A DNA stretch of 64,000 nucleotides from Cryomorphaceae bacterium (lineage in GTDB: Bacteria > Bacteroidota > Bacteroidia > Flavobacteriales_D > Parvicellaceae). Where the stretch lies: positions 124,001 through 188,000 of the forward strand of contig CAJJBV010000001.1 in NCBI GenBank assembly GCA_905182525.1. The letters run 5' to 3'. The first letter of the stretch is position 1; each line of letters begins with the position of its first letter. Below the pieces are notes generated by a model, which saw only the letters and a list, made by a program, of their open reading frames with translations, did not search any database and was not told where the DNA came from. Of the stretch, positions 1,868 to 17,472 are shown piece by piece. The translations under genes and the position numbers were made by a program.

Positions 1868-3028
1868 TTAAAATGAAAAAGATAACCCAACCATCCAATA
1901 TTCTAAAAATTGTAATGATGGTCCTGATTTAACAATTTTGAAGCCATTATCAGTGAATCCATCTCCATCTACGTCAAAATCTGTATAACCAATATAATTT
2001 ACACTATTTGTTCCGTCTCCAGACCAGTCAAATCCGGGGTTTGCATAATATTCATTGTATTCTACAAAATAATGATTACCTCCAATTCGAGGGTCGACTT
2101 GACCGGCTGGTCTTTCTAAATAAACAGGTGTTAAATCACTGTTGTATCGTGGGATATTTATATCATGATCGTAAATTAAATAACTCTGAAATGTTACACT
2201 AAAAAATTTATTTATTGAATAGGAAAGTAAAAACTCACATGTCACATCAATATTTCCAGGTTCTTCTAGATAGTTTCCAAATAGAGTAACATCGGACATG
2301 AAGTGAAGATTTTTAATATTAAAAAGACTATCATGAGTGTATAAAAGATTTAAATAAAGACCAGCTTCCGTTCTTATATTTTCACCTGCATCTAGGCCAA
2401 AAACACCAACTCTAGATAAAGAATCATCTAAAACTATTGTATTCTTAACTGTTAGTGGAGATACATCGACAGTTAAGTGATTAGAGACATGAAAGTCTAG
2501 TCCTAAACCAAAAATTGGATAAATTGGAGATAAGAAGTTGTCCATATAGTTACGGGCTTTTCTATCCCACTCTGTATAGTAGCCATAAGCAAACTGAGTT
2601 CTAACGTCTACTAAAAAAGTATAATCCCAGAGGTGATTTGTTCTTCTAGCAAATTTAGTTCTAACTTGAATTAAATCGTCATTTTTAAGCCAAACACCTT
2701 CATCGCCATAACCCTGTTTAAAAACTCCAAATTGAATATTTATAAAATTATTCCAATGAAATTTATTGTGCCTGTAGTCAAATCTAAGATTAGCTAGACC
2801 GTGAAGTTCCATAAAATTCATTCCACCTGCAGCCCAATTATAAAGGTGTACTCTATTTAAACCCAAATAAACTTCTGAGTGATTGTCCCAATAGCTAGAA
2901 TCATTGGTAAGTTCTATTTCTTTATTAATTATATAGTTTGCATTCTCATCATTATTTTGAGCATAGTTAAAGTCTAATAAAAATGTTAAAATAAATAGAA
3001 AGCAAATTTTAAAAGTATTATAAAACAT
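1868..3028 (-). CDS. DUF3078 family outer-membrane protein
   Basis: A 386-residue protein with a signal peptide (MFYNTFKICF start, cleavage probably after NYAQ). The mature part begins with the W-rich motif (YWDNHSEVYLGLNRVHLYNW, AAGG) and the alternating aromatic strands typical of the Bacteroidota DUF3078 family, which is predicted to form an outer-membrane beta-barrel. The substrate or role of the family is unknown. I moved the start from a TTG at 3049 to the ATG at 3028: the TTG lies inside a TAAATTTG promoter box, and the ATG gives a clean signal peptide. Near the C-terminus there is an Asp/Gly-rich stretch (DFDVDGDGFTDNG) resembling a calcium-binding loop. It appears to be a single-gene transcript ending at the terminator at 1794-1827. 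Confidence 0.85.
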   Translation of the reverse strand: MFYNTFKICFLFILTFLLDFNYAQNNDENANYIINKEIELTNDSSYWDNHSEVYLGLNRVHLYNWAAGGMNFMELHGLANLRFDYRHNKFHWNNFINIQFGVFKQGYGDEGVWLKNDDLIQVRTKFARRTNHLWDYTFLVDVRTQFAYGYYTEWDRKARNYMDNFLSPIYPIFGLGLDFHVSNHLTVDVSPLTVKNTIVLDDSLSRVGVFGLDAGENIRTEAGLYLNLLYTHDSLFNIKNLHFMSDVTLFGNYLEEPGNIDVTCEFLLSYSINKFFSVTFQSYLIYDHDINIPRYNSDLTPVYLERPAGQVDPRIGGNHYFVEYNEYYANPGFDWSGDGTNSVNYIGYTDFDVDGDGFTDNGFKIVKSGPSLQFLEYWMVGLSFSF

Positions 3029-3046
3029 AGTGTTTGATTTAATTTT

Positions 3047-3054
3047 CAAATTTA
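3047..3054 (-). promoter_or_regulatory. Bacteroidota -7 promoter box (TAAATTTG) for the DUF3078 gene
   Basis: On the minus strand the sequence TAAATTTG matches the Bacteroidota primary sigma factor -7 consensus TAnnTTTG. A TTTT element, a partial match to the -33 TTTG, lies about 19-20 bases further upstream. The ATG at 3028 would then follow after a short leader. This rests on motif matching only. Confidence 0.6.
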
Positions 3055-3191
3055 ATAAATGTTATTTTAAAAGTTCATAACTTAATGAAGTTATTTCATC
3101 ATTAAATTTAATGCATTTGTCAAATATGATTATTTCAATAACAAACTTTATCATTTTTTAGTTAAATTGCAGTAAATTAAAACTAATCAAA

Positions 3192-4103
3192 ATGAAAAAA
3201 TTTATAATTGCTGCTACAGTTCTTTTTTCTTTTTCTGTAATTTCCGCTCAGGAAAAAGGCGAAAAAAATGAAAAAGGAATTAAGACAGAAAAATCTAACA
3301 ACGAAAAATACGATGGAAACAGTTGGAAAACTGATAAACTTGAAAAAGAAGATAGACCTTACGTATCTCCTGAAGACAGAAAGCCAACAAATGATAAAGG
3401 TTATTCACCAAAAAAGCAAAATCCCACTTTAGATAATGAAAAGAGTTCTTCAAGAGCTTCTAAAGCTGGTGTTGAAGCTGCTAAAGGTTCTGCTAAAGGT
3501 CCTAAGCAATCTAAAATGGAGCCATCTTCAAAGGGTTCAGTAAACTCTAAAGGTTCTTCAAGAGCTTCTAAAGCTGGTGTTGAAGCTGCTAAAGGTTCTG
3601 CTAAAGGTCCTAAGCAATCTAAAATGGAGCCATCTTCAAAGGGTTCAGTAAACTCTAAAGGTTCTTCAAGAGCTTCTAAAGCTGGTGTTGAAGCTGCTAA
3701 AGGTTCTTCTAAAGGTCCTAAGCAATCTAAAATGGAGCCATCTTCTAAGGGTTCAGTAAACTCTAAAGGTTCTTCAAGAGCTTCTAAAGCTGGTGTTGAA
3801 GCTGCTAAAGGTTCTGCTAAAGGTCCTAAGCAATCTAAAATGGAGCCATCTTCAAAGGGTTCAGTAAACTCTAAAGGTTCTTCAAGAGCTTCTAAAGCTG
3901 GTGTTGAAGCTGCTAAAGGTTCTGCTAAAGGTCCTAAGCAATCTAAAATGGAGCCATCTTCTAAGGGTTCAGTAAACTCTAAAGGTTCTTCAAGAGCTTC
4001 TAAAGCTGGTGTAGAAGCTGCTAAAGGTCCTTCAAAAGGTCCTAAGCAATCTAAAATGGAGCCATCTTCTAAGGGTTCAGTAAATTCTAAAGGAAAGAGA
4101 TAG
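3192..4103 (+). CDS. Secreted low-complexity cationic protein with six 36-residue repeats
   Basis: A 303-residue protein with a signal peptide (residues 1-20, ending VISAQ). A charged linker rich in K, E, N and D (21-85) follows. Residues 86-301 are six head-to-tail 36-residue repeats, each containing SSRASKAGVEAAKG and SKMEPSSKGSVNSKG, and the protein ends KR. The mature protein is dominated by Lys, Ser, Gly and Ala, with almost no hydrophobic residues beyond one Val, Met and Pro per unit, so it is strongly basic and probably disordered. I do not recognise a family; the repeats recall histone H1-like tails, but a signal peptide argues for an exported protein. There is no T9SS tail or lipobox. 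It is a single-gene unit ending in a strong terminator. A function in binding polyanions such as extracellular DNA or acidic polysaccharide is speculation. Confidence 0.85.
   Translation: MKKFIIAATVLFSFSVISAQEKGEKNEKGIKTEKSNNEKYDGNSWKTDKLEKEDRPYVSPEDRKPTNDKGYSPKKQNPTLDNEKSSSRASKAGVEAAKGSAKGPKQSKMEPSSKGSVNSKGSSRASKAGVEAAKGSAKGPKQSKMEPSSKGSVNSKGSSRASKAGVEAAKGSSKGPKQSKMEPSSKGSVNSKGSSRASKAGVEAAKGSAKGPKQSKMEPSSKGSVNSKGSSRASKAGVEAAKGSAKGPKQSKMEPSSKGSVNSKGSSRASKAGVEAAKGPSKGPKQSKMEPSSKGSVNSKGKR
3447..4094 (+). repeat. Six tandem 108-bp in-frame repeats
   Basis: Six consecutive units of 108 bp encode the 36-residue repeats of the secreted cationic protein. Copies are almost identical at the DNA level: differences are a GCT/TCT or CCT codon (Ala, Ser or Pro in the KGSAKG position), TCA versus TCT before AAG, and small changes in the last copy (GTA for GTT, AAT for AAC). 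This indicates recent expansion or homogenisation. Confidence 0.95.
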
Positions 4104-4126
4104 TATTATTAATTTAATGTATTTAT

Positions 4127-4154
4127 AAAAGCCCTCAAATGAGGGCTTTTTTTT
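4127..4154 (+). terminator. Intrinsic terminator of the cationic repeat protein gene
   Basis: The stem gccctc/gagggc (4131-4136 and 4141-4146) with loop aaat is extended by A-T pairs and followed by eight T residues (4147-4154). It lies 24-28 bases after the stop codon of the gene ending at 4103. Confidence 0.93.
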
Positions 4155-4540
4155 GTTGTAAATTAAAATAAACTATGTACCGTAGAATTTAGAAAAAATA
4201 TAATATCATATGAACACAACATACTATTTATTATAAACCATAGATCAATCATTAAATCATAATAAAATTTATAATATGTTATGTATTTTTAAATAGAGAA
4301 AGTGTTTTATTAAGTTTTAATATTAATTTATAATAATTTATATTATGACTCCAAAATATTAGATACAATTTCATTAAACCTTTAATTTTAAGGTTATGCT
4401 TAACCTTGTTACATATGTTAAATGAAGTCCCTCATAAATTATTTATAATACTAAATAGATGATCTATAAATATTAAAAGAAATGGATTTAAAAATCTAAA
4501 GTAAATTAAAAAAGATTTAATAAATTAAAATCAATGTTAG
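4155..4540. other. Gene-free AT-rich spacer
   Basis: About 390 bases between two convergent transcription units. I see no reading frame or RNA gene. A small perfect hairpin (aaggtta/taacctt, 4390-4396 and 4401-4407) lacks a following T run on either strand, so I do not call it a terminator. The rest is low-complexity A/T sequence. Confidence 0.5.
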
Positions 4541-7500
4541 TTATCTAACTATAGAAATGGTACCATCCTTTTTAAGATTTCCTGTTTCATCGAAAATCCT
4601 ATAAACATAAGTTCCATTTGGAAGAACTTCATTTGTATAAGTTCCATCCCAATTCATATTATTAATTGTGCTTTTATAAAGCATTTGTCCCCACCTATTG
4701 TAAATTTCTATTTCTAATTTATCAGTATCTAAACCATAAACTTTAAAAACATCATTAACTCCATCACCATCTGGCGAAAAAGAGGTAGGAATGAATAATT
4801 TATAACAATTGGTTACCCCATTATTTTCTACATTTAAATTAAAACTACATGTTTCAACGTTCCCAAGGGTATCGACAACATTGAATGATATAATTTGAGT
4901 ACCAATAAAATCAATTATTGAATCAGCAGAAGGTTTTTGGTAAACTGTTTTAGAACTTTTACATAACTCTCCAACTAAAAGTTGATTTGAAAAGTCTGGT
5001 ATTGATAGCTTACAGTTATCATCTAACATTCTAAAGTCATCATTAGGGCAAATTAATTGAGGAACATCTACATCTATAATCTTAACACTAAAACTACAAG
5101 TTGATGAGTTTCCAGATGAATCTGTTACGTTGAAAGTTGTAGCAAAACTATCTGTTAATACAGTATTTTCAGATGGAAACTGGGTTATTGTTTCAATTCC
5201 ACAATTATCATTAGTAAATACTAAGTCAGAATAGTCAGGAACTAAAAATTCACAGTTTTGGTCAAAAGACCCGACAGTATCATTTGGACAAATTATTTCA
5301 GGAAATTCAATATCATTTACCAAAACATAAAAATTACAAGTTCCAGAATTACCTGCCAAATCAGTAACTTGATAAATATTATTGGTTATGCCTATAGGAA
5401 ATAATGAACCTCCTGGTAAACCAGAAATTAAGCTTGTAGTACTAGCACAATTATCAGTTCCAATTGGAGTTGTATATGAATAGATTGCTCCACATTGTAA
5501 GGTGTCATTATCTAAAACTTTACTTCCTGGACAAATTATTAGCGGGTTAATAGTGTCAATCAATAACACTCTAAATTCACAAATAGAATTATTTCCAGCA
5601 TCGTCAGTAACTGAAATAACAATCAATGTATCAACACTTAAAGTACTTCCAGGTATCGGGATTTGAGAAATTAGTAAAGATGTATCACAATTATCTGAAG
5701 ATATAATTGAATCCATAAAGTTTGGTAATATATAGTTACAACTTTGATCTAAAAATATATTCTGTGTTGAAAGACAGTTAACTATTGGCCTAATAGTATC
5801 AAGTATAGTTAAGCTAAAAAAACATGTATTAAAATTACCACTTTGGTCCGTTGAAGTTATTGTAATTACAGTATCAGAATAAATAACTGTCCCTAAACTT
5901 GGGTTTTGAGTTAAAACAGCATTATAATCACAATTATCAAGAGTTGATGCGTTTAGAGTATAATCAGGTAAAATGAATCCACAAGATGAATCATAGTATT
6001 CAATCTTAGCTGATGGGCAATTTATTGATGGTTTAATGGTGTCTAATAATTCAAGATTAAAAGTACAAGTTGTTGAATTATTTGATATATCAATCACTGT
6101 TAATGATATAACAGTATCGGTAATTATAAAAAGATTAGGAGAAGGAGTTTGTATTATATTTTGAATGTTATTACAATTTTCATTGATTATAACTCTATTA
6201 GTATAATCTAAAACTGTATGAAGACAATTTGCACTAAGAATTCCCGATGTGTCTCTAGGACAACTGATTACAGGTTTAATAGTGTCTAATAAATTAAGAG
6301 TAAAACTACAACTACTAGAGTTTCCAGAAATATCTGTTGCAGTTAATGTAATAACAGTATCGTTAAAAACCTCCGTTCCTACAGTTGGTGATTGTGTAAC
6401 TATTGGTATATTATCACAGTTGTCGGTAAGGTTAACTCTATTTGTATAATCAATTATATTAAAAGAACATGAATTATTATAATAATCAATAGTATCTGCA
6501 CTACAAGAAACTATTGGCGCTATGTTATCACTTAAAGTTAAATTAAAAGAACATGTGCTTAAATTATTTGAAGCATCCGTAACAGTTAAAGTAATTACTG
6601 TATCTGTATTTACAATAGAACTTGAAGTTGGAAATTGAGTTACTGTAAGAGGATAATTACAATTATCATTTACAGTTGCAAGTGTTGTATAATCAAGTAA
6701 ACTAAAGCTACAAGTAGCGTTATAATTATCTGTTTGGGTAATAGGACATATAATAGTAGGATCTGTATAATCGTTAATGTCTAAATTTAAAGTTACTACA
6801 CTATCGCAACCATTAGAAGCAATAAGTGTGTGTGTGTATGCACCATTTGCAGTATACCAAGTTCCATACCAAAATAAGCTATCACAATCAATTACTGAAA
6901 GACTTCCAGTGGTTGGTTGAATAATTGTAAGGTTTAGTGTTACTACACTATCGCATCCTACTGTATTTGTTGTAGTAAAGTTGTATGATCCTGAAGTGTT
7001 GTAATTAGATCCATTCCAATTATAAGAAACACAAGATGTAATATTTTCAGTTGAATCTTGGTTAGGTCCAACTTCTGTATAATCTGAAATACTATTTCCG
7101 TTAATGTCCGCTGGTGTTGTATAACCATCAGTTCCACTACTTACAGTTCCATTAGCATTGAATGTTGGTGATGCTGCACCTAGTATGCCATCTCCATTAT
7201 CGTCTGTGTAGACTGCTTCTACTACGTCATTACATCCATCGCCATCACTATCTAACTCTAAGTAATCTGCTATATTATCACTATCACTATCTGGCTCTGT
7301 GGTAGATTCTGTATTATCTGCCATTCCGTTTAAATTAATATCTAAATAGCCAGCGTCATTAAAATCTACTTTTCCATCATTATTTGTATCAAAAGCACCA
7401 TCCCCACCTTCAACAACATCAAATATGCCATCGTTATCACTATCTAGATCTAAGTAATTTGCTATATTATCACCATCAGTATCTCCATTTCCTTCGTCAG

Positions 7501-8533
7501 TATCTTTAATGCCATCATTATCATCGTCGATATCACAAAAATCAGAAATATTATCACCATCATTATCACTACCAATAACAGTCACAATTGCTGTATCCGT
7601 AGAAAAATTACCGCTAAAGTCTGTAACAGTTAATACTACTTTATTAGACCCTAACTGAGTGCAAGATAATGAGCTAGGAAAAACACTTAAGGTCAAAGGA
7701 TTACAATAATCATTATCTGAAGAACCACCGTCAATTTGAGCTGCTGTAATATTTATGTTACCTAGAGAATTTAAATTAACAGTTAAGGGTTGAGTAACAA
7801 CAATTGGAGATATAGTGTCTCTAATATCAACAGTAGCATTTCCAATTGACGGAACGGAATTATTATCATCAACTGTTAATGTAACATTATTATTTCCCAA
7901 GTTGTTACAACCAAAAGAGTTTGGAAAAACACTTAAAGCTAATGGGCCACAAGCATCAGAAGAACCATTGTTAATATGATCTGGTGTAACTGACGCAATT
8001 CCTAATGCATTTAAATATAATATGGTATCCTGAGTAATAACAATAGGTGATATTGCGTCAATCACAGTAACGATAGAAGTATCAGTGGAAATATTTCCAT
8101 TTACATCAGTTACAATTAAAGCAATTTTTCTTGTGCCTAAGTCTGAACAATTAAAAGAACTATCATTTAAAGACAAACTTGCAATTGAACAATCATCGAA
8201 AGAACCTAAGTCAATATTTGTTGGTAAAATATTAGCATTCCCTGAAGCATCTAGATTAACATTAATTGAAGGTCTAAGAGAAACTATTGGCTTTACAGTG
8301 TCATTTAAAACAAAATTTATGTTTCCTGTATAAACACCTGTGTTATTACAATCTCCTACGCTACCACCATATTCAACAAAATATCCCTGAATATCCAAGA
8401 CCTGAGGGATCTTCAGGAGCAATTTTTGGAAATCATTCCAGTAATCCATCTGACTTTGGAAATGAGCATAATCTTCGTGTATATTTCCTGCATTTGTAGG
8501 GATAATTATCATTTGGCTCTCCAGCTGCCCCAA
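4541..8533 (-). CDS. C-terminal piece of the giant adhesin: HYR-like repeats, calcium-binding repeats and type B T9SS sorting domain
   Basis: The open frame of 1330 codons covers the last third of the giant protein. It begins inside the C-type lectin domain (HEDYAHF, GYFVEYGG). Next come Ig-like segments ending in SGN/TVT motifs, then thrombospondin type 3-like calcium-binding runs (DxDxDGxxD) at about residues 320-480. About eight HYR-type repeats of roughly 80 residues follow, each with an IxCP start, an internal C, a DNC and a CSF motif. The last 85 residues (FIPTSFSPDGDGVNDVF to SIVR, with YNRWGQ) form a type B (gliding motility-associated) T9SS sorting domain. The apparent TTG start at 8533 is not real: it lies just after a frameshift in the lectin domain. 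Confidence 0.8.
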   Translation of the reverse strand: MGQLESQMIIIPTNAGNIHEDYAHFQSQMDYWNDFQKLLLKIPQVLDIQGYFVEYGGSVGDCNNTGVYTGNINFVLNDTVKPIVSLRPSINVNLDASGNANILPTNIDLGSFDDCSIASLSLNDSSFNCSDLGTRKIALIVTDVNGNISTDTSIVTVIDAISPIVITQDTILYLNALGIASVTPDHINNGSSDACGPLALSVFPNSFGCNNLGNNNVTLTVDDNNSVPSIGNATVDIRDTISPIVVTQPLTVNLNSLGNINITAAQIDGGSSDNDYCNPLTLSVFPSSLSCTQLGSNKVVLTVTDFSGNFSTDTAIVTVIGSDNDGDNISDFCDIDDDNDGIKDTDEGNGDTDGDNIANYLDLDSDNDGIFDVVEGGDGAFDTNNDGKVDFNDAGYLDINLNGMADNTESTTEPDSDSDNIADYLELDSDGDGCNDVVEAVYTDDNGDGILGAASPTFNANGTVSSGTDGYTTPADINGNSISDYTEVGPNQDSTENITSCVSYNWNGSNYNTSGSYNFTTTNTVGCDSVVTLNLTIIQPTTGSLSVIDCDSLFWYGTWYTANGAYTHTLIASNGCDSVVTLNLDINDYTDPTIICPITQTDNYNATCSFSLLDYTTLATVNDNCNYPLTVTQFPTSSSIVNTDTVITLTVTDASNNLSTCSFNLTLSDNIAPIVSCSADTIDYYNNSCSFNIIDYTNRVNLTDNCDNIPIVTQSPTVGTEVFNDTVITLTATDISGNSSSCSFTLNLLDTIKPVISCPRDTSGILSANCLHTVLDYTNRVIINENCNNIQNIIQTPSPNLFIITDTVISLTVIDISNNSTTCTFNLELLDTIKPSINCPSAKIEYYDSSCGFILPDYTLNASTLDNCDYNAVLTQNPSLGTVIYSDTVITITSTDQSGNFNTCFFSLTILDTIRPIVNCLSTQNIFLDQSCNYILPNFMDSIISSDNCDTSLLISQIPIPGSTLSVDTLIVISVTDDAGNNSICEFRVLLIDTINPLIICPGSKVLDNDTLQCGAIYSYTTPIGTDNCASTTSLISGLPGGSLFPIGITNNIYQVTDLAGNSGTCNFYVLVNDIEFPEIICPNDTVGSFDQNCEFLVPDYSDLVFTNDNCGIETITQFPSENTVLTDSFATTFNVTDSSGNSSTCSFSVKIIDVDVPQLICPNDDFRMLDDNCKLSIPDFSNQLLVGELCKSSKTVYQKPSADSIIDFIGTQIISFNVVDTLGNVETCSFNLNVENNGVTNCYKLFIPTSFSPDGDGVNDVFKVYGLDTDKLEIEIYNRWGQMLYKSTINNMNWDGTYTNEVLPNGTYVYRIFDETGNLKKDGTISIVR

Positions 8534-8811
8534 TTACTATAACTAAGACTCGTTCCATCGACCCATTGCCAATTACCTCCAGGTTCAGCAAGATTATTGG
8601 GTTGTGACAATCCTATCCATCCTGAAAGATTAATATTATTAAAAGCAAAGTCTTGTTCTAATTGATTGGTAATAGTAACCAAATAACCTGCTCTTCCTAA
8701 ATAAGTACTAGCTTCTGCAGCTGCTTTTAGCATCAGTCCATGAAATATTGGTTGCAGAAATAAATTTATAGAAATGACCATTACTAGGATTGTAAGTAGT
8801 TCCATCGTCAC
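8509..8811 (-). CDS. Fragment carrying most of a C-type lectin domain (part of the giant adhesin)
   Basis: The real coding part is below about 8728: a C-type lectin fold with AGYLVTITNQLEQDF, GWIGL, and WQWVDGTSLSYSNWG, the family's core WIGL and W-NW motifs. Above 8728 this frame is noise. Removing one A/T from the run 8725-8728 joins it to an upstream frame reading NGHFYKFISATNISWTDAK, the normal N-terminal strand of the domain. Below, restoring one G in the run 8528-8531 gives GEPND, the expected calcium/sugar-binding EPN motif. Removing one base in 8499-8501 restores NYPTNAGNIHEDYAHF. An EPN motif usually indicates mannose-type sugar binding in animal lectins; applying that here is inference. 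Confidence 0.65.
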   Translation of the reverse strand: MTMELLTILVMVISINLFLQPIFHGLMLKAAAEASTYLGRAGYLVTITNQLEQDFAFNNINLSGWIGLSQPNNLAEPGGNWQWVDGTSLSYSNWGSWRAK

Positions 8812-8846
8812 GTTTAACAGTATAGGTAGCTGTTGCTATATGATTA

Positions 8847-11417
8847 TTATTTCCAGTTGGTGTGTAAGAAGTAGGATCCATCAAAATTATCTATAATAGT
8901 TCCAGAAGATGGAGTATTAATAAAATCTACTTGTAGTGCTGGAAAAAGAGAATTATATGGATCGGTATCATTGGAAATAATATCGGATTCAGAAAAAGTA
9001 ACAGTATCATTACAGCTATAAATATTCACTACATCATCAACTGTAATAATTGGTAAAATATCGTTTACTGTAACATTAAAAATAGCAAATGAAGAGTCTA
9101 AATTATTATCAACTACAAATAAAGTATCTACGTTATTTCCAATATTAGAGCAATTAAAATTATACTTTGATAAAGTTAAATTAGGGCTATTTGTGCAATC
9201 ATCATTTGATCCATTGTTAATTTGATTTGCGGTAATTGTAGCATTACCAGTTGCATCCAAAGTTACTATATGATTAGGTTTTGCAATAGCAATTGGAGGG
9301 TTGTTAACGACTGTTACTTGTGCAGAAAGAGAGTCTGTAATATTATTAATGTCATCAACTTTCAACCAAACTGTGATTGTAGAGCCAACATCACTACAAT
9401 AAAGTGTGTCCGGTCTTACCCTGTAATTGGTTAATCCACAAGCAGAATAGGATCCATCGTCAACTTGAGATGGTAAAATAGTAATCCTTGCTGTTAAGAA
9501 ATTTAAGTTTATAGAAATATTTTTTGTTTTCATAAAAACACCTGCTTCCATAAAGTCATAAATACCAGAACCATTAGAATCTAATGGAATTGTGTAACCA
9601 TCTACTCTACTAATAACTTTCCCGTCAGTATCAACTGCTGGAGGAGCTAATGAACCGAGTAGTGAATCTTTATTATTATCAGTGAAACCTGCTTCACTTA
9701 CATCTCTACATCCGTCACCGTCGGAATCTAAATCTTGAAAATCTTTTTTACCATCTAAATCTGTGTCAGGTTCTAATGTAAGTTGAGTATTGTCATCCAT
9801 TCCATTATTATCAGAATCTATAAAACCAGCATCGTTTACATCGACAACCCCATCATTATTAGTATCAAATATTTCATCCCCACCTTCAATGACATCATGA
9901 ATTCCATCGTTATCACTATCTAAATCGAATTTATCAACAACAAGATCCCCGTCGGTGTCACCATAAGATAAATCATCGACTCCTAAAATGAAATAAACAA
10001 AATCTCCGCCAGAATTAATATCAAAGGTAAATTTTGAAAAACTTCCGTTCAACCTGACAATTGCATTACCGCTTAAATTATTAATATTTTCAATTTTATT
10101 TCCAGTTTTTATAATATTACTGGACCAAAGCACATCAATAGGATCATAAAATTGAATATCCACAACTACTGATGCAATTTTACCAACATCTGAAAATAAA
10201 ATTATTGGGTTATTTACAGGCTGATTAAAAGTTATAGTGTTAGAGTTATTAACCGTCACTTGAAAACAATTTTGAATAGGAACAGGTTGACTAGGGACAC
10301 CATATGAAATAGGAAAATCAGTTGGATTTGGTAGAGTTGAAGTTTGAATTACTGAATTAGGTGAGTTAGTGTAACCAACACTATTTATTATACCAGTAGC
10401 AGTAGGCGGGTTTAAAGTTGGTATATTTGACCATTTAATATCTGAAGTTGTAAATTCGTCAGTATCATAAATGCCATCGTTGTCATCATCAAAATCACAA
10501 GGATCAGGTACACTATCACCATCTTGATCAGATCCACTTACAGTAACTTGTCCAATTCCTGTTGTTGTAATCCCATTTACTGTGATGCTTAGGGTAACAT
10601 TTATAGGATTATTCGGAACATCATCACATGTGAAATCATATCTACTTAACGATCTCGTAAATAGTCTCCCACATGGATCAACAGATCCATCGTCAATATC
10701 ATTTGTATCTATACTAGCACTTCCAAAAGCGTTTAACTGAACAGTAATATCCTTAGTTTTTACTATTACTCCTGGCTCCATAAAGTCATACAAACCATCA
10801 GAATTTAAATTGTCTGGTTCTGTATATCCATCTACTCCACTAGTAACTTTACCATTTAAATCAACTGTTACAGGACTTGGTCCAAGTAAAGAATCGGAAT
10901 TACTGTCTGTAAATCCAGCTTCAATCACATCACTACATCCATCGGCGTCACTATCTAAATCTACATAATCAAATTTACCATCAAGGTCTGTATCATATGG
11001 GAATGTTGCAAATGAAGCATCATTCATTCCATCATTATCTAAATCTGTAAAACCTGGGTCATTAATATTTACTACTCCATCATTATTTTTATCCGAGGCA
11101 CTATCTCCAGCTTCAATAATATCATAAATTCCATCATTGTCACTATCTAAATCTAAATGGTTAGCAATTCCATCATTATCAAAATCCATATAACCTCCAC
11201 AATTTAAAGACAAATTTAAAGGAGTGGAATTATCAAAACTATTATCAATAGTTGAAATTTTCAAATAGTCTGTAGTCATTTTAATCTCCCAAAATTCAGA
11301 AGCTTGATCAGTTCCAGAACCATTAAATAATAAGTTTCCACCAAAATCTTGAACAATAAGTAAGTCACTATTAGGATCATAAATTTCAAATAATCTACTA
11401 TTTACCAGTAAGTCTAG
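8847..11417 (-). CDS. Middle piece of the giant adhesin: calcium-binding and Ig-like repeats
   Basis: An open frame running from about 11417 (LVNSRLFEIYDPNSD) to a stop at 8847. It contains three long DxDxDG-rich clusters of the thrombospondin type 3 sort (for example DFDNDGIANHLDLDSDNDG, DTDGDLVVDKFDLDSDNDG) separated by Ig-like segments with conserved NCS/SCN cysteines. The final residues (GTIIDNFDGS) lead into the lectin domain; removing one T from the run at 8869-8870 restores the normal DGSYSYTPTG junction. An internal ATG at 11279 could be mistaken for a start, but it has no signal peptide and the homologous sequence continues upstream. Confidence 0.7.
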   Translation of the reverse strand, partial: LDLLVNSRLFEIYDPNSDLLIVQDFGGNLLFNGSGTDQASEFWEIKMTTDYLKISTIDNSFDNSTPLNLSLNCGGYMDFDNDGIANHLDLDSDNDGIYDIIEAGDSASDKNNDGVVNINDPGFTDLDNDGMNDASFATFPYDTDLDGKFDYVDLDSDADGCSDVIEAGFTDSNSDSLLGPSPVTVDLNGKVTSGVDGYTEPDNLNSDGLYDFMEPGVIVKTKDITVQLNAFGSASIDTNDIDDGSVDPCGRLFTRSLSRYDFTCDDVPNNPINVTLSITVNGITTTGIGQVTVSGSDQDGDSVPDPCDFDDDNDGIYDTDEFTTSDIKWSNIPTLNPPTATGIINSVGYTNSPNSVIQTSTLPNPTDFPISYGVPSQPVPIQNCFQVTVNNSNTITFNQPVNNPIILFSDVGKIASVVVDIQFYDPIDVLWSSNIIKTGNKIENINNLSGNAIVRLNGSFSKFTFDINSGGDFVYFILGVDDLSYGDTDGDLVVDKFDLDSDNDGIHDVIEGGDEIFDTNNDGVVDVNDAGFIDSDNNGMDDNTQLTLEPDTDLDGKKDFQDLDSDGDGCRDVSEAGFTDNNKDSLLGSLAPPAVDTDGKVISRVDGYTIPLDSNGSGIYDFMEAGVFMKTKNISINLNFLTARITILPSQVDDGSYSACGLTNYRVRPDTLYCSDVGSTITVWLKVDDINNITDSLSAQVTVVNNPPIAIAKPNHIVTLDATGNATITANQINNGSNDDCTNSPNLTLSKYNFNCSNIGNNVDTLFVVDNNLDSSFAIFNVTVNDILPIITVDDVVNIYSCNDTVTFSESDIISNDTDPYNSLFPALQVDFINTPSSGTIIDNFDGSYFLHTNWK

Positions 11418-12586
11418 TTAATATTGTCATCACTACTAAATTTATTTATTGAAGAAAGCTTATGTTTTAAAATAATTGTAACAGGTGACGAAAAAGTAAA
11501 AATGATATTTTGATTATTTGCAATTTCAATATCTCCATTGGAATAACCGTTAATAGTTGGTGAGGATTTCACCATATTTACAGTTATAATTTTTTTGGTT
11601 TCTTGATCGAAATAAGTAGATGTTGTACTTAATGCATTTCCAATAACAGATAAATCCATTGGAAAAGTACAGTCTAATGACTCTTCTAAATCGGTAATAC
11701 CATCATTATCATCGTCTATGTCACAAACATCTGAATAAGAATCACCATCTGAATCCGTAGCTTTAACCGTGACTGTTGCATTTGCTTTATTAAAATTTCC
11801 ATTTACATCGTAAATTGTTAATTCGATAGTTTGTAAACCAATATCATGACAATCAAAAGTGCTTTTATCTAAAGTAAATTGAGACGGATCTAGCCCACAA
11901 ATATCAGTCGAACCGTTATTAATAAACACAGGAGTTATACTAGCAACTCCAAAAGCATCTAAATAAACATCAATATTTTTTGTTAGAACTGTAGGTTTGA
12001 TAGTATCTAAAACAGTGACTAAAGCATTTATAGATTTATTATTACCGTTTATGTCGGAAACAGTTAAAACCACTGTTTGGTCATGTGATGTGTGAGTACA
12101 ATCAAATGAAGTTCTATCTAGAGACTTAGAATTAATTCCACAATTGTCAGATGAACTAATCTCAACTTGGCTAACGGTTAAAGTTGCATTCCCAGTTGCA
12201 TCTAAATATATTGTATCAGGTTGTGTAGCTACAATTGGTGATATAGTATCTATTACATTAACAATTGATGTTGCAGTATTTATATTACCATTTATATCTG
12301 TTATCGTTAATGTAACTGTATTGGCACCAACATTAATGCATGTAAAATTAGATATATCTATAGTTTCTGTGTTTATTCCGCAATTATCAAAGGAACCATT
12401 ATTAACTTCTGCTGCAGAAATGGAACCAACTCCTAGACTGTTTATATAAACAGTTTCATTTTTAGTTATTACTGTAGGAAGAATAATATCTTGTGATGTG
12501 ACTATAACTTGATCAGTATTAGAACAATTATTGGCATCAGTTCCTGTAACAGTGTATGTATTAGCTCCTGCAGGTGGTACCGGATT
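11414..12586 (-). CDS. Piece of the giant adhesin: Ig/HYR-like repeats
   Basis: The frame is open from the frameshift at about 12589 down to a stop at 11414. It begins NPVPPAGANTYTVTGTD, which directly continues the Ig-like domain (VWDNSITDGV) that ends the upstream piece. Three similar segments of about 85 residues follow, each with a TVYINSLG or IYLDATG strand, a DNCG or DICG motif and a VTD-NGN strand. A DxDxD calcium-binding stretch (DIDDDNDGITD) and a SprB-like beta segment come next. The apparent start at 12073 is a GTG inside a repeat. Confidence 0.65.
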   Translation of the reverse strand, partial: NPVPPAGANTYTVTGTDANNCSNTDQVIVTSQDIILPTVITKNETVYINSLGVGSISAAEVNNGSFDNCGINTETIDISNFTCINVGANTVTLTITDINGNINTATSIVNVIDTISPIVATQPDTIYLDATGNATLTVSQVEISSSDNCGINSKSLDRTSFDCTHTSHDQTVVLTVSDINGNNKSINALVTVLDTIKPTVLTKNIDVYLDAFGVASITPVFINNGSTDICGLDPSQFTLDKSTFDCHDIGLQTIELTIYDVNGNFNKANATVTVKATDSDGDSYSDVCDIDDDNDGITDLEESLDCTFPMDLSVIGNALSTTSTYFDQETKKIITVNMVKSSPTINGYSNGDIEIANNQNIIFTFSSPVTIILKHKLSSINKFSSDDNIN

Positions 12587-12588
12587 TA

Positions 12589-15500
12589 TTAAACACCATC
12601 AGTTATAGAATTATCCCAAACATAATTTCCACCTAATCCTGCCCCACTTCCATTAACAAAAGTAGTGGTACCTGGACATATAGTTTGAGGTGGTCCTGCT
12701 GAAATATTTGGCAATGCATTTACTGTGATTGTTTTAGTAGCTGTTACCAAACCACAACTTCCTCCACTTGTTGTTAATGTCAAGGTAATACTACCCGATT
12801 CTGATGCATCTGCTGTATATCTTGCATTTACTTCATCAGTAGCACTTGTCCATGTTCCTGCTCCTCCACTCCATGTTCCACCTGTGGCTCCTCCACCTAC
12901 CGATCCGTTCATTATAGCAGATGTTGTTCCTTGACATATAGCTGCTAAAGCTCCTCCAGATGTTGCTGTTGACAACGCATTTACTGTGATTGTTTTAGTA
13001 GCTGTTACCGAACCACAACTTCCTCCACTTGTTGTTAATGTCAAGGTAATACTACCCGATTCTGATGCATCTGCTGTATATCTTGCATTTACTTCATCAG
13101 TAGCACTTGTCCATGTTCCTGCTCCTCCACTCCATGTTCCACCTGTGGCTCCTCCACCTACCGATCCGTTCATTATAGCAGATGTTGTTCCTTGACATAT
13201 AGCTGCTAAAGCTCCTCCAGATGTTGCTGTTGACAACGCATTTACTGTGATTGTTTTAGTAGCTGTTACCGAACCACAACTTCCTCCACTTGTTGTTAAT
13301 GTCAAGGTAATACTACCCGATTCTGATGCATCTGCTGTATATCTTGCATTTACTTCATCAGTAGCACTTGTCCATGTTCCTGCTCCTCCACTCCATGTTC
13401 CACCTGTGGCTCCTCCACCTACCGATCCGTTCATTATAGCAGATGTTGTTCCTTGACATATAGCTGCTAAAGCTCCTCCAGATGTTGCTGTTGACAACGC
13501 ATTTACTGTGATTGTTTTAGTAGCTGTTACCGAACCACAACTTCCTCCACTTGTTGTTAATGTCAAGGTAACACTACCCGATTCTGATGCATCTGCTGTA
13601 TATCTTGCATTTACTTCATCAGTAGCACTGGTCCATGTTCCTGCTCCTCCACTCCATGTTCCACCTGTGGCTCCTCCACCTACCGATCCGTTCATTATAG
13701 CAGATGTTGTTCCTTGACATATAGCTGCTAAAGCTCCTCCAGATGTTGCTGTTGACAACGCATTTACTGTGATTGTTTTAGTAGCTGTTACCGAACCACA
13801 ACTTCCTCCACTTGTTGTTAATGTCAAGGTAATACTACCCGATTCTGATGCATCTGCTGTATATCTTGCATTTACTTCATCAGTAGCACTTGTCCATGTT
13901 CCTGCTCCTCCACTCCATGTTCCACCTGTGGCTCCTCCACCTACCGATCCGTTCATTATAGCAGATGTTGTTCCTTGACATATAGCTGCTAAAGCTCCTC
14001 CAGATGTTGCTGTTGACAACGCATTTACTGTGATTGTTTTAGTAGCTGTTACCGAACCACAACTTCCTCCACTTGTTGTTAATGTCAAGGTAATACTACC
14101 CGATTCTGATGCATCTGCTGTATATCTTGCATTTACTTCATCAGTAGCACTTGTCCATGTTCCTGCTCCTCCACTCCATGTTCCACCTGTGGCTCCTCCA
14201 CCTACCGATCCGTTCATTATAGCAGATGTTGTTCCTTGACATATAGCTGCTAAAGCTCCTCCAGATGTTGCTGTTGACAACGCATTTACTGTGATTGTTT
14301 TAGTAGCTGTTACCGAACCACAACTTCCTCCACTTGTTGTTAATGTCAAGGTAATACTACCCGATTCTGATGCATCTGCTGTATATCTTGCATTTACTTC
14401 ATCAGTAGCACTTGTCCATGTTCCTGCTCCTCCACTCCATGTTCCACCTGTGGCTCCTCCACCTACCGATCCGTTCATTATAGCAGATGTTGTTCCTTGA
14501 CATATAGCTGCTAAAGCTCCTCCAGATGTTGCTGTTGACAACGCATTTACTGTGATTGTTTTAGTAGCTGTTACCGAACCACAACTTCCTCCACTTGTTG
14601 TTAATGTCAAGGTAATACTACCCGATTCTGATGCATCTGCTGTATATCTTGCATTTACTTCATCAGTAGCACTTGTCCATGTTCCTGCTCCTCCACTCCA
14701 TGTTCCACCTGTGGCTCCTCCACCTACCGATCCGTTCATTATAGCAGATGTTGTTCCTTGACATATAGCTGCTAAAGCTCCTCCAGATGTTGCTGTTGAC
14801 AACGCATTTACTGTGATTGTTTTAGTAGCTGTTACCGAACCACAACTTCCTCCACTTGTTGTTAATGTCAAGGTAATACTACCCGATTCTGATGCATCTG
14901 CTGTATATCTTGCATTTACTTCATCAGTAGCACTTGTCCATGTTCCTGCTCCTCCACTCCATGTTCCACCTGTGGCTCCTCCACCTACCGATCCGTTCAT
15001 TATAGCAGATGTTGTTCCTTGACATATAGCTGCTAAAGCTCCTCCAGATGTTGCTGTTGACAACGCATTTACTGTGATTGTTTTAGTAGCTGTTACCGAA
15101 CCACAACTTCCTCCACTTGTTGTTAATGTCAAGGTAATACTACCCGATTCTGATGCATCTGCTGTATATCTTGCATTTACTTCATCAGTAGCACTTGTCC
15201 ATGTTCCTGCTCCTCCACTCCATGTTCCACCTGTGGCTCCTCCACCTACCGATCCGTTCATTATAGCAGATGTTGTTCCTTGACATATAGCTGCTAAAGC
15301 TCCTCCAGATGTTGCTGTTGACAACGCATTTACTGTGATTGTTTTAGTAGCTGTTACCGAACCACAACTTCCTCCACTTGTTGTTAATGTCAAGGTAACA
15401 CTACCCGATTCTGATGCATCTGCTGTATATCTTGCATTTACTTCATCAGTAGCACTGGTCCATGTTCCTGCTCCTCCACTCCATGTTCCACCTGTGGCTC

Positions 15501-17472
15501 CTCCACCTACCGATCCGTTCATTATAGCAGATGTTGTTCCTTGACATATAGCTGCTAAAGCTCCTCCAGATGTTGCTGTTGACAACGCATTTACTGTGAT
15601 TGTTTTAGTAGCTGTTACCGAACCACAACTTCCTCCACTTGTTGTTAATGTCAAGGTAACACTACCCGATTCTGATGCATCTGCTGTATATCTTGCATTT
15701 ACTTCATCAGTAGCACTGGTCCATGTTCCTGCTCCTCCACTCCATGTTCCACCTGTGGCTCCTCCACCTACCGATCCGTTCATTATAGCAGATGTTGTTC
15801 CTTGACATATAGCTGCTAAAGCTCCTCCAGATGTTGCTGTTGACAACGCATTTACTGTGATTGTTTTAGTAGCTGTTACCGAACCACAACTTCCTCCACT
15901 TGTTGTTAATGTCAAGGTAACACTACCCGATTCTGATGCACCTGCTGTATATCTTGCATTTACTTCATCAGTAGCACTGGTCCATGTTCCTGCTCCTCCA
16001 CTCCATGTTCCACCTGTGGCTCCTCCACCTACCGATCCGTTCATTATAGCAGATGTTGTTCCTTGACATATAGCTGCTAAAGCTCCTCCAGATGTTGCTG
16101 TTGACAACGCATTTACTGTGATTGTTTTGGTAGCTGTTACCGAACCACAACTTCCTCCACTTGTTGTTAATGTCAAGGTAACACTACCCGATTCTGATGC
16201 ACCTGCTGTATATCTTGCATTTACTTCATCAGTAGCACTGGTCCATGTTCCTGCTCCTCCACTCCATGTTCCACCTGTGGCTCCTCCACCTACCGATCCG
16301 TTCATTATAGCAGATGTTGTTCCTTGACATATAGCTGCTAAAGCTCCTCCAGATGTTGCTGTTGACAACGCATTTACTGTGATTGTTTTAGTAGCTGTTA
16401 CCGAACCACAACTTCCTCCACTTGTTGTTAATGTCAAGGTAACACTACCCGATTCTGATGCACCTGCTGTATATCTTGCATTTACTTCATCAGTAGCACT
16501 GGTCCATGTTCCTGCTCCTCCACTCCATGTTCCACCTGTGGCTCCTCCACCTACCGATCCGTTCATTATAGCAGATGTTGTTCCTTGACATATAGCTGCT
16601 AAAGCTCCTCCAGATGTTGCTGTTGACAACGCATTTACTGTGATTGTTTTAGTAGCTGTTACCGAACCACAACTTCCTCCACTTGTTGTTAATGTCAAGG
16701 TAATACTACCCGATTCTGATGCATCTGCTGTATATCTTGCATTTACTTCATCAGTAGCACTGGTCCATGTTCCTGCTCCTCCACTCCATGTTCCACCTGT
16801 GGCTCCTCCACCTACCGATCCGTTCATTATAGCAGATGTTGTTCCTTGACATATAGCTGCTAAAGCTCCTCCAGCTGTTGCTGTTGGTAAAGGGTCTAAA
16901 CTAAAAGACCGAACAGCGCGAACATAGTTGGTGGCGCTCTTAACGTTGGTGGACTGGCTACCACTGCCGAAATACTGTTCCCACGCACTGACGTTATCGT
17001 TCTCCGTAGAACTCCAATAGAAGTTATTAGCAAAACCGCCAATTGCAACTCTGTTAATATATAGTTTATTTAACTCATCCTTACTTGGCAAATACCAATC
17101 ACTGTATGAACCAAGAGTTAAATTTGCACAATGATCAGCAGCTATTCCAGGCGTTGTACATCCAGCATCTATATTTATAGTGTTTTGATTCCCTGTTCCT
17201 ATTGCTATTCCCGCAATAGCAAGAACTGTACCAGAACAACCCCATGATCCTGATTGGTCAGTTGGTGCAGCAATAAGACCCTTCTGAACATTAGCATCAT
17301 AACCAGGATCACCAACTTGTAAGATGTAACCTACGATACCACCCTGAAAAGAATCGCCAATAGAAACTGGTGTACCAATTAGAGCATAAAAACTTTTTGA
17401 AAAAAAGAATATAAAAATTATAAAAACAAATTTTAGCCAGTTAAGAAAAAAATTAGTTTTTATGAAATTCAT
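12589..17472 (-). CDS. N-terminal piece of the giant adhesin: signal peptide, DUF1566-like domain and sixteen 87-residue repeats
   Basis: This intact open frame of 1627 codons starts with a signal peptide (MNFIKTNFFLNWLKFVFIIF). Residues 30-190 resemble the DUF1566/Lcl C-terminal domain (GGIVGYILQ, SDWYLPSKDELNKLY, FYWSSTE, YVRAVRSF). Sixteen nearly identical 87-residue repeats follow, each with GGALAAICQGTTSAI, GGTWSGGAGTW and GSCGSVTATKTITV. They look like Ig/PKD-type beta-sandwich units with two cysteines that could pair. It ends at a frameshift within a further Ig-like domain. Inference: the repeats form an extended stalk that holds the lectin and other domains away from the cell. The base composition of the repeats and of the DUF1566 region is visibly richer in G and C than in the neighbours. 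Confidence 0.85.
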   Translation of the reverse strand: MNFIKTNFFLNWLKFVFIIFIFFFSKSFYALIGTPVSIGDSFQGGIVGYILQVGDPGYDANVQKGLIAAPTDQSGSWGCSGTVLAIAGIAIGTGNQNTINIDAGCTTPGIAADHCANLTLGSYSDWYLPSKDELNKLYINRVAIGGFANNFYWSSTENDNVSAWEQYFGSGSQSTNVKSATNYVRAVRSFSLDPLPTATAGGALAAICQGTTSAIMNGSVGGGATGGTWSGGAGTWTSATDEVNARYTADASESGSITLTLTTSGGSCGSVTATKTITVNALSTATSGGALAAICQGTTSAIMNGSVGGGATGGTWSGGAGTWTSATDEVNARYTAGASESGSVTLTLTTSGGSCGSVTATKTITVNALSTATSGGALAAICQGTTSAIMNGSVGGGATGGTWSGGAGTWTSATDEVNARYTAGASESGSVTLTLTTSGGSCGSVTATKTITVNALSTATSGGALAAICQGTTSAIMNGSVGGGATGGTWSGGAGTWTSATDEVNARYTAGASESGSVTLTLTTSGGSCGSVTATKTITVNALSTATSGGALAAICQGTTSAIMNGSVGGGATGGTWSGGAGTWTSATDEVNARYTADASESGSVTLTLTTSGGSCGSVTATKTITVNALSTATSGGALAAICQGTTSAIMNGSVGGGATGGTWSGGAGTWTSATDEVNARYTADASESGSVTLTLTTSGGSCGSVTATKTITVNALSTATSGGALAAICQGTTSAIMNGSVGGGATGGTWSGGAGTWTSATDEVNARYTADASESGSITLTLTTSGGSCGSVTATKTITVNALSTATSGGALAAICQGTTSAIMNGSVGGGATGGTWSGGAGTWTSATDEVNARYTADASESGSITLTLTTSGGSCGSVTATKTITVNALSTATSGGALAAICQGTTSAIMNGSVGGGATGGTWSGGAGTWTSATDEVNARYTADASESGSITLTLTTSGGSCGSVTATKTITVNALSTATSGGALAAICQGTTSAIMNGSVGGGATGGTWSGGAGTWTSATDEVNARYTADASESGSITLTLTTSGGSCGSVTATKTITVNALSTATSGGALAAICQGTTSAIMNGSVGGGATGGTWSGGAGTWTSATDEVNARYTADASESGSITLTLTTSGGSCGSVTATKTITVNALSTATSGGALAAICQGTTSAIMNGSVGGGATGGTWSGGAGTWTSATDEVNARYTADASESGSITLTLTTSGGSCGSVTATKTITVNALSTATSGGALAAICQGTTSAIMNGSVGGGATGGTWSGGAGTWTSATDEVNARYTADASESGSVTLTLTTSGGSCGSVTATKTITVNALSTATSGGALAAICQGTTSAIMNGSVGGGATGGTWSGGAGTWTSATDEVNARYTADASESGSITLTLTTSGGSCGSVTATKTITVNALSTATSGGALAAICQGTTSAIMNGSVGGGATGGTWSGGAGTWTSATDEVNARYTADASESGSITLTLTTSGGSCGSVTATKTITVNALSTATSGGALAAICQGTTSAIMNGSVGGGATGGTWSGGAGTWTSATDEVNARYTADASESGSITLTLTTSGGSCGLVTATKTITVNALPNISAGPPQTICPGTTTFVNGSGAGLGGNYVWDNSITDGV
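12715..16890 (-). repeat. Sixteen tandem 261-bp repeats
   Basis: The period is exactly 261 bp (87 codons), repeated sixteen times within one frame. Copies differ at only a few sites. Three linked variants define types: an Ile/Val codon (ata/aca on the plus strand), a Ser/Ala-Gly/Asp site (cat/cac), and tgt/ggt after the agcac run. The three copies at about 15857-16588 share all three minority variants; copies at 15335, 15596 and 13508 share two; the rest carry the majority type, and the first copy (16640) is mixed. Such near-identity means recent expansion or ongoing gene conversion, and copy number may vary between cells. Confidence 0.97.

Follow-up and report, generated by a model that had tools for sequence, protein, structure and literature searches.

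A basic tandem-repeat protein with a signal peptide whose interior differs from that of positional orthologues in the same genus

Introduction

Silaffin Sil1 of diatoms, a eukaryotic protein, combines a signal peptide with tandem Lys/Ser repeats that are built of shorter units than those considered here and contain modified lysines. Lysine-rich repeats have also been described in bacterial and parasite proteins. In the available excerpt of one study (PMC3293801), the lysine-rich repeats of mycobacterial HBHA bind heparin and vary between species: the proteins of M. tuberculosis and M. avium, which have different repeats, bind with KD values of 53 and 47 uM, respectively, heparin binding is weaker for M. 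smegmatis HBHA with its single penta-repeat, and the repeats are short (KAAAK/KAPAK). Excerpts of two further papers describe targeting sequences in Plasmodium that arise when lysine-rich repeats expand, with an efficiency that varies with the number of repeats (PMC5207086), and the Legionella collagen-like protein Lcl, an exported repeat protein that recognises sulfated glycosaminoglycans and has a positively charged surface on its C-terminal domain (PMC11162425).

The gene described here lies in a 64,000-nt stretch of the genome of a Cryomorphaceae bacterium (positions 124,001 to 188,000 of contig CAJJBV010000001.1; hereafter the window, whose own numbering we use), and within the open-licence papers and terms used, no title dealt with its locus. 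It too encodes a signal peptide and lysine-rich repeats, and it occupies a place that it shares with genes of the same genus whose interiors are different.

Results

The focal ORF (exactly 3192..4103, + strand) starts with ATG, encodes 303 aa and is open throughout, with no frameshift or stop across its six repeat units. Its first 19 residues (3192..3248, +) read by eye as a signal peptide (i.e., MKK, a hydrophobic core and an SA-QE junction, with cleavage presumably before Gln20) and align with those of an orthologue in the genome G007. The 66-aa linker that follows (residues 20-85; 3249..3446, +; 16 K+R and 15 D+E) holds the protein's one Trp and all three Tyr, and residues 20-83 are charge-balanced (15 K+R vs 15 D+E). 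Six tandem 36-residue units, each with a net charge of +6, were delimited by a repeat scan and by reading of the sequence (3447..4094, +), and a terminal Lys-Arg and the stop codon (4095..4103, +) come after the sixth.

Tandem Repeats Finder placed 6.0 copies of a 108-bp repeat at 3440-4093, with 97% matches and a score of 1236. The units, which start at residues 86, 122, 158, 194, 230 and 266, have the sequence SSRASKAGVEAAKGSAKGPKQSKMEPSSKGSVNSKG, with SA replaced by SS in unit 3 and by PS in unit 6, and one quarter of the repeat region is serine. Units 1, 2 and 4 are identical in DNA, pairs of units differ at 0-7 of 108 nt, and unit 6 is the most divergent copy (5-7 of 108 nt from the others). 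These data confirm the six near-identical units that a sequence-only reading of this DNA had reported, and its proposal of a recent expansion also holds up: because the units are nearly identical, three of them completely so in DNA, and the unit is undetectable in G007, the array looks young. No donor for the new interior was found elsewhere in the genome, where the best DNA match beyond the array covers 35 bp (E 7e-4, query 3192-3560).

Two further ideas about the unit were discarded. That it is a doubled 18-mer was ruled out, since 639 of 2000 shuffles score as well; and although T-ending codons number 18 of 23 in the unit, against 13 of 26 in the signal peptide and linker and 1296 of 2804 (46%) in 11 other window genes, a case for high expression from codon usage was set aside, one unit being effectively one observation. 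A second, far larger recent array lies at 12708-16886, inside the ORF 12589-17472 (-), and has 16 copies of a 261-bp (87-aa) Gly/Thr/Ser-rich repeat (SGGALAAICQGTTSAIMNGSV...) with 99% matches; recently formed tandem arrays may be frequent in this genome.

The composition of the protein (K 19.5%, S 20.8%, G 11.2%, A 10.2%) and its pI, which is 10.2 for the mature protein and 10.8 for residues 84-303 (51 K+R, 12 D+E, net +39), bear out the earlier description of a basic Lys/Ser/Gly/Ala-rich chain. Among the 39 non-overlapping, ATG-started window ORFs of at least 100 aa, it ranks first for pI, for net charge per residue and for K+S+G+A content. A sequence scan found no Cys in the protein, and hence no lipobox Cys. 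A single-sequence AF2 model, which is weak evidence, has a mean pLDDT of 47.6 and no helix in the array.

Neither Pfam nor NCBIfam yielded a match to the protein up to E = 1, in agreement with the earlier statement that it has no known domain, and PDB sequences yielded none up to E 0.1; in its own genome, and in a set of 60 genomes (59 relatives plus its own), the full protein matched only itself. Among 395 genomes of the phylum (its own included), the self match was accompanied by three weak matches (E 7e-4 to 0.009; 20-24% identity, two with internal stop codons), which were dismissed as compositional, a product of low complexity, without their loci being read. Of 32 pattern stretches in genome_contigs and one in viral_contigs, none was confirmed. 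The sequence-only reading had suggested a search for relatives of the repeat family, and across the 60 genomes, the 395 phylum genomes, PDB sequences, Pfam and NCBIfam none was convincing; judged by its sequence, the protein is outside every known family tested.

With the N-terminal 84 residues as the query, the 39 family genomes returned the window's own and five further matches (E 0.02-0.48). The best of these, in G007 (E 0.023), was kept on account of its place; those in G012, G011 and G006 were dropped as unrelated ORFs at other places, and that in G060 (E 0.479) was dropped without its locus being read. The linker had no convincing relative in the 39 family genomes or the 395 phylum genomes.

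The focal gene is flanked by a divergent gene for a DUF3078 protein (1868..3049, -) and a convergent gene for an HYR-domain surface protein with a CHU_C type IX secretion signal (4541..8533, -). In G007, which is of the same genus, the orthologue (L041:5386-6234) lies between the same two neighbours, of which the DUF3078 protein is 68% identical to that of the window and the surface protein 65% identical over 219 aa, and by eye the gene order includes methyltransferase and copper-binding-type genes as in the window. By position, then, the focal gene is not an orphan. G007 also has, by eye, an acyltransferase-like gene between the methyltransferase and DUF3078 genes (L041:2846-4045) that the window lacks. 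The G007 product has 282 aa and a similar signal peptide: the alignment with residues 1-30 of the window protein scores 68, against a shuffle mean of 18.9, and none of 500 shuffles reaches it. Together with the reading by eye, this likeness upholds the signal peptide claimed from the sequence alone.

The locus was found in 5 of the 11 genus members (G000, i.e., the window's own genome, G001, G003, G006 and G007). Both neighbours were matched in G007; in G001, G003 and G006 the surface-protein neighbour was matched and the DUF3078 gene was not, and these three loci run into contig ends within or next to the repeats, as would be expected of short-read assemblies at tandem repeats. The other six members (G002, G004, G005, G008, G009 and G010; 63-92% complete) yielded neither the hairpin domain described below nor the specific surface-protein neighbour, three of them matching only the common CHU_C end, and they therefore have no bearing on the direction of change.

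Apparent surface-protein coding sequence at 8303-12598 (-) spans changing frames (12598-11417, 11417-8850, 8890-8711, 8835-8512, then from 8533), and the G007 orthologue of the 4541-8533 gene is a single 1638-aa ORF. These shifts reflect either a broken gene or uncorrected indels, and because they lie nearby, small sequence errors in the window are possible, although the focal reading frame is uninterrupted.

Between the divergent DUF3078 gene and the focal gene, the DNA at 3066..3191 (+) is conserved with that of G007, the one complete same-genus orthologue available for a 5' comparison: the local alignment scores 93, against a maximum of 45 in 300 dinucleotide shuffles, and 132 when 60 nt of coding sequence are included. 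It does not align with the corresponding DNA of G013 (L045), which is of a different genus, the score being matched by 96 of 300 shuffles for the window and 94 of 300 for G007. A palindrome within the conserved DNA, ATTTG-T-CAAAT at 3115-3125, is a possible regulator site; the aligned place in G007 reads TTTTG-T-CAAAA, both arms having changed symmetrically.

Past the stop codon lies a predicted intrinsic terminator, AAAAGCCCTCAAATGAGGGCTTTT (4127..4150, +), with a 10-bp stem and a T tail. Its fold is better than those of 200 of 200 shuffles (z -4.55), which sustains the earlier claim that the gene has its own terminator, although a consensus scan alone was within chance (one found vs a shuffle mean of 0.7). 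In the 2.19-Mb genome of the window, to which this count was confined, the stem AAGCCCTC-loop-GAGGGCTT has just one occurrence. Each of the five genus members with the locus carries it 20-28 nt past the stop codon, exactly in G000, G001, G003 and G006 and, in G007, with a single change that leaves a G-U pair. Because the stretch from the stop codon to the next gene, terminator included, does not align overall between the window and G007 (87 of 300 shuffles match the score), the shared stem stands isolated. The five genes from outside the genus that are described below have other hairpins after the stop codon. In all 10 genes a predicted hairpin (shuffle-tested in the window only) and then T's follow the stop, and the last residue is basic (Arg in six, Lys in four). 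On this evidence, the two ends of the transcription unit appear orthologous in the window and G007, and what lies inside is unalignable.

Inside, the relatives in the genus carry NRAA...NT.KAE-type repeats of 19 aa (G007), 21 aa (G001) and 27 aa (G003); the contig of G006 ends before the repeats, and its body is unseen. The G001 and G007 repeats are related (0 of 500 shuffles reach the score), and the G003 stretch matches G001 (E 1e-39) and G007 (E 1e-26), aided by the shared hairpin. The window protein has no NRAA-type repeat, and its unit aligned with five relatives no better than chance, the score being reached by 66 (G007), 204 (G001), 496 (G003), 242 and 457 of 500 shuffles. Because the single comparison of bodies between genera, G013 vs G007, was also unalignable (302 of 500 shuffles), the window case is special for falling within one genus.

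At the C-terminus of the products in G007, G001, G003 and G006 lies a helical hairpin that bears Cys and in which Cys, Trp, Gly and Tyr are conserved. Its alignment (A1) has 13 invariant columns across nine sequences, and the domain has two to four Cys and the pattern C-GW--GY...P-C...E-YK-GY; AF2 predicts helices at 22-40 and 61-76 within a block of pLDDT 81-94 (residues 21-77), and a PDB fold search with this model was empty (best E 4.5). No Pfam family matched the orthologues' hairpin above its cut-off. DUF2623 on the G013 hairpin (15.5 bits vs a cut-off of 25.7), an AIDA-I autotransporter adhesin model on the G007 repeats (E 4e-6, 24.5 bits vs a cut-off of 1200), a sulfur-globule model (G007 and L018) and two further weak matches (L045 and L018) were all treated as compositional.

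At E 0.01, the hairpin domain was found in 9 of 39 family genomes (with two weak matches in G036) and in 13 of 299 order genomes, five of them weak (G081, G098, G120, G217 and G270; E 2e-4 to 0.01) and, in the loci that were read (L018-L020), carrying it in other proteins; at E 0.001, it was found in 1 of 395 genomes drawn from the class, where the match is a different small protein. The window's own genome, which is 96% complete, had no match at E 0.01, and a frameshift hiding the C-terminal domain was ruled out, there being no C-GW motif or remnant in six frames of 4081-4560. Outside the genus, a basic low-complexity body with the hairpin at its C-terminus occurs in G013 (two genes), G021, G018 and G025. 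The G013 and G021 genes have a 35-aa spacing, and one gene in each of these genomes adjoins a DUF3078-like ORF by eye, as the G007 gene does by search. Small, apparently secreted proteins from other families of the order and class (L018:679-1902, L019:1486-1770, L020:1261-1893 and L064:1402-1686) consist of at least one copy of a C-GW--GY...P-CP...Y--G module and are perhaps related to the orthologues' hairpin.

In an unrooted, five-row tree of the last 480 residues of the neighbouring surface protein, G000 groups with G007 against G001, G003 and G006 (support 100/100), and the G000 protein is 62.5% identical to that of G007 vs 55-58%. Since G007 has repeats in common with G001 and G003, and its hairpin in common with all three and with other genera, the simplest reading of these sequences is that the interior was rewritten on the window's lineage, between conserved ends. 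Because the positional orthologues have a different repeat and a hairpin, this replacement is the more interesting event.

Discussion

The best reading of the function of this protein would be that, outside the cytoplasm, it binds an anionic polymer. It may be, though we put the case somewhat short of probable, that the product is an exported, disordered polycation that binds an anionic polymer of the envelope or matrix by charge and is selected for its bulk properties, not its sequence; charge and flexibility may then matter more than the exact order of residues. Signal peptides are recognisable by eye in the five complete genes (window, G007, both of G013, and G021), and the 10 genes examined have pI values of 8.5-10.2 (10.08, 9.61, 9.42 and 9.56 in the complete relatives, 8.51-9.66 in the five partial ones), with a low-complexity body in nine (that of G006 being unseen). 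Because charge, body, hairpin and last residue stay constant while the sequence changes, a function that depends on bulk properties is favoured. Against such a polycation, the conserved hairpin of the relatives suggests a more specific ancestral role, possibly lost here, and the unit is rich in Ser, with a charge that is only moderate.

If the protein acts in this way, its signal peptide, to judge from sequence and conservation, would take it across the inner membrane, and having neither a lipobox Cys nor a recognised type IX signal, it would stay in the periplasm or reach the surface or matrix by an unspecified route. The Lys/Ser/Gly/Ala units would bind an anionic polymer that belongs either to the envelope of the cell itself or to its surroundings (candidates being lipopolysaccharide, exopolysaccharide, algal sulfated polysaccharide and extracellular DNA) through many weak charge contacts, with the number of units setting the avidity. 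Selection would keep the promoter, export, positive charge, disorder and termination and leave residue order free; and because residue order would be unselected, the interior could be rewritten by repeat turnover. We are doubtful about a further possibility, namely that this locus preserves promoter, signal peptide, charge, disorder and terminator as mature sequence, repeat family and folded domain are rewritten between species of one genus, the product being a sequence-free exported polycation that is conserved in its properties and in which unit and unit number are freely exchangeable.

The loss of the hairpin could instead have left a relaxed remnant, i.e., a signal peptide followed by an array, selfish or neutral, that is expressed and of little use, the ancestral function being gone. 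Such a history would fit with the domain's presence at the locus in G007, G001, G003 and G006 and in two other genera of the family, with its absence from the window's own genome (at E 0.01) and from the six frames of 4081-4560, and with units so nearly identical that the array is young. However, the six units are free of frameshifts and stops, the upstream DNA and signal peptide are still common with G007 and the terminator with four relatives, and the new interior is still basic and of low complexity, as the relatives' repeats are, and we consider a remnant unlikely. Somewhat more unlikely still is a periplasmic filler or cross-linker, a basic chain that stays in the periplasm and has peptidoglycan, or the outer membrane's inner leaflet, as its ligand. 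The signal peptide, with no recognised type IX signal or lipobox Cys, and the Lys or Arg that comes last in all 10 genes are consistent with it; yet Pfam and NCBIfam yielded no peptidoglycan-binding domain, and the last residue is Arg in 6 of 10 genes and Lys in four, unlike Braun lipoprotein, a lysine-linked protein.

Many antimicrobial peptide families combine a conserved leader with a hypervariable mature part, and what we observe is a signal peptide that is conserved and a mature part that has diverged, as for an arms-race peptide that is directed against competitors or that escapes phage or grazers. But the mature part here consists of a long, hydrophilic run of Ser/Lys repeats with no Cys and no evident amphipathic pattern, the relatives retain a conserved hairpin, and the four Pfam-checked neighbours include nothing that looks like an immunity gene or a protease or transporter for maturation and transport; we regard an arms-race peptide as improbable, and the antimicrobial role that had been raised from the sequence gains no support. 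The sequence-only reading had also likened the protein to histone H1 tails. Its basic character stands, but the likeness is weaker than stated, since the units carry only +6 per 36 residues, the repeat region is one-quarter Ser, and residues 20-83 are balanced. A DNA-binding nucleoid protein with an uncleaved N-terminus would share the basic Lys/Ala/Ser-rich composition, and HBHA, a lysine-rich surface adhesin, is placed at the nucleoid too in the available excerpt of one report (PMC10665949). Here, however, the N-terminus has the look of a signal peptide and aligns with that of G007, and the Cys-bearing domain of the relatives would suit an oxidising compartment; because the signal peptide is conserved, a nucleoid role is disfavoured, and we regard it as very improbable.

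Genes that share a locus and a terminator and encode different basic bodies form a natural comparison series, in which the export signal and upstream DNA are common to at least one sister species. With such a series one could ask whether selection on exported polycations acts on their charge and flexibility rather than on their sequence, and how tandem-repeat turnover can replace the whole interior of a bacterial protein. Should the protein have algal or cell-surface polysaccharide as its ligand, it would also be relevant to the attachment of these small-genome Bacteroidota.

Set against the locus family of its genus (signal peptide, NRAA repeats and Cys hairpin), the window gene shares the place between the DUF3078 and CHU_C genes, the signal peptide (as compared with G007) and the terminator stem (5 of 5 with the locus), but its protein has no NRAA-type repeat and no Cys hairpin; with relatives beyond the genus it shares a basic low-complexity body, a hairpin terminator and a basic last residue. 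It differs from type IX secreted proteins in having no CHU_C/Por_Secre_tail sorting domain by Pfam or NCBIfam, whereas the window genes at 4541-8533 and 137-742 do match Pfam models of this type. A histone H1-like or other nucleoid protein would be cytoplasmic, with no cleaved signal peptide; the N-terminus here, read by eye as a signal peptide and conserved in G007, would speak against such a membership.

The likeness to mycobacterial HBHA lies in Lys-rich repeats, in the proposed binding of an anionic polymer and in repeat variation between species; compared by motif and by family models, the window protein differs in having no KAAAK/KAPAK and no Pfam or NCBIfam match. HBHA has an N-terminal domain and is not known to have a cleaved signal peptide, and neither feature fits the window protein. 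The lysine-rich repeat proteins of Plasmodium (GARP and others) belong to a eukaryotic parasite, and we would read their resemblance, like that of HBHA, as a likeness of working and not of descent. Lcl bears its positive surface on a folded trimeric C-terminal domain, and the window protein has no collagen-type repeats. Silaffin Sil1, for its part, resembles the window protein in joining a signal peptide to tandem Lys/Ser repeats, although its units are shorter.
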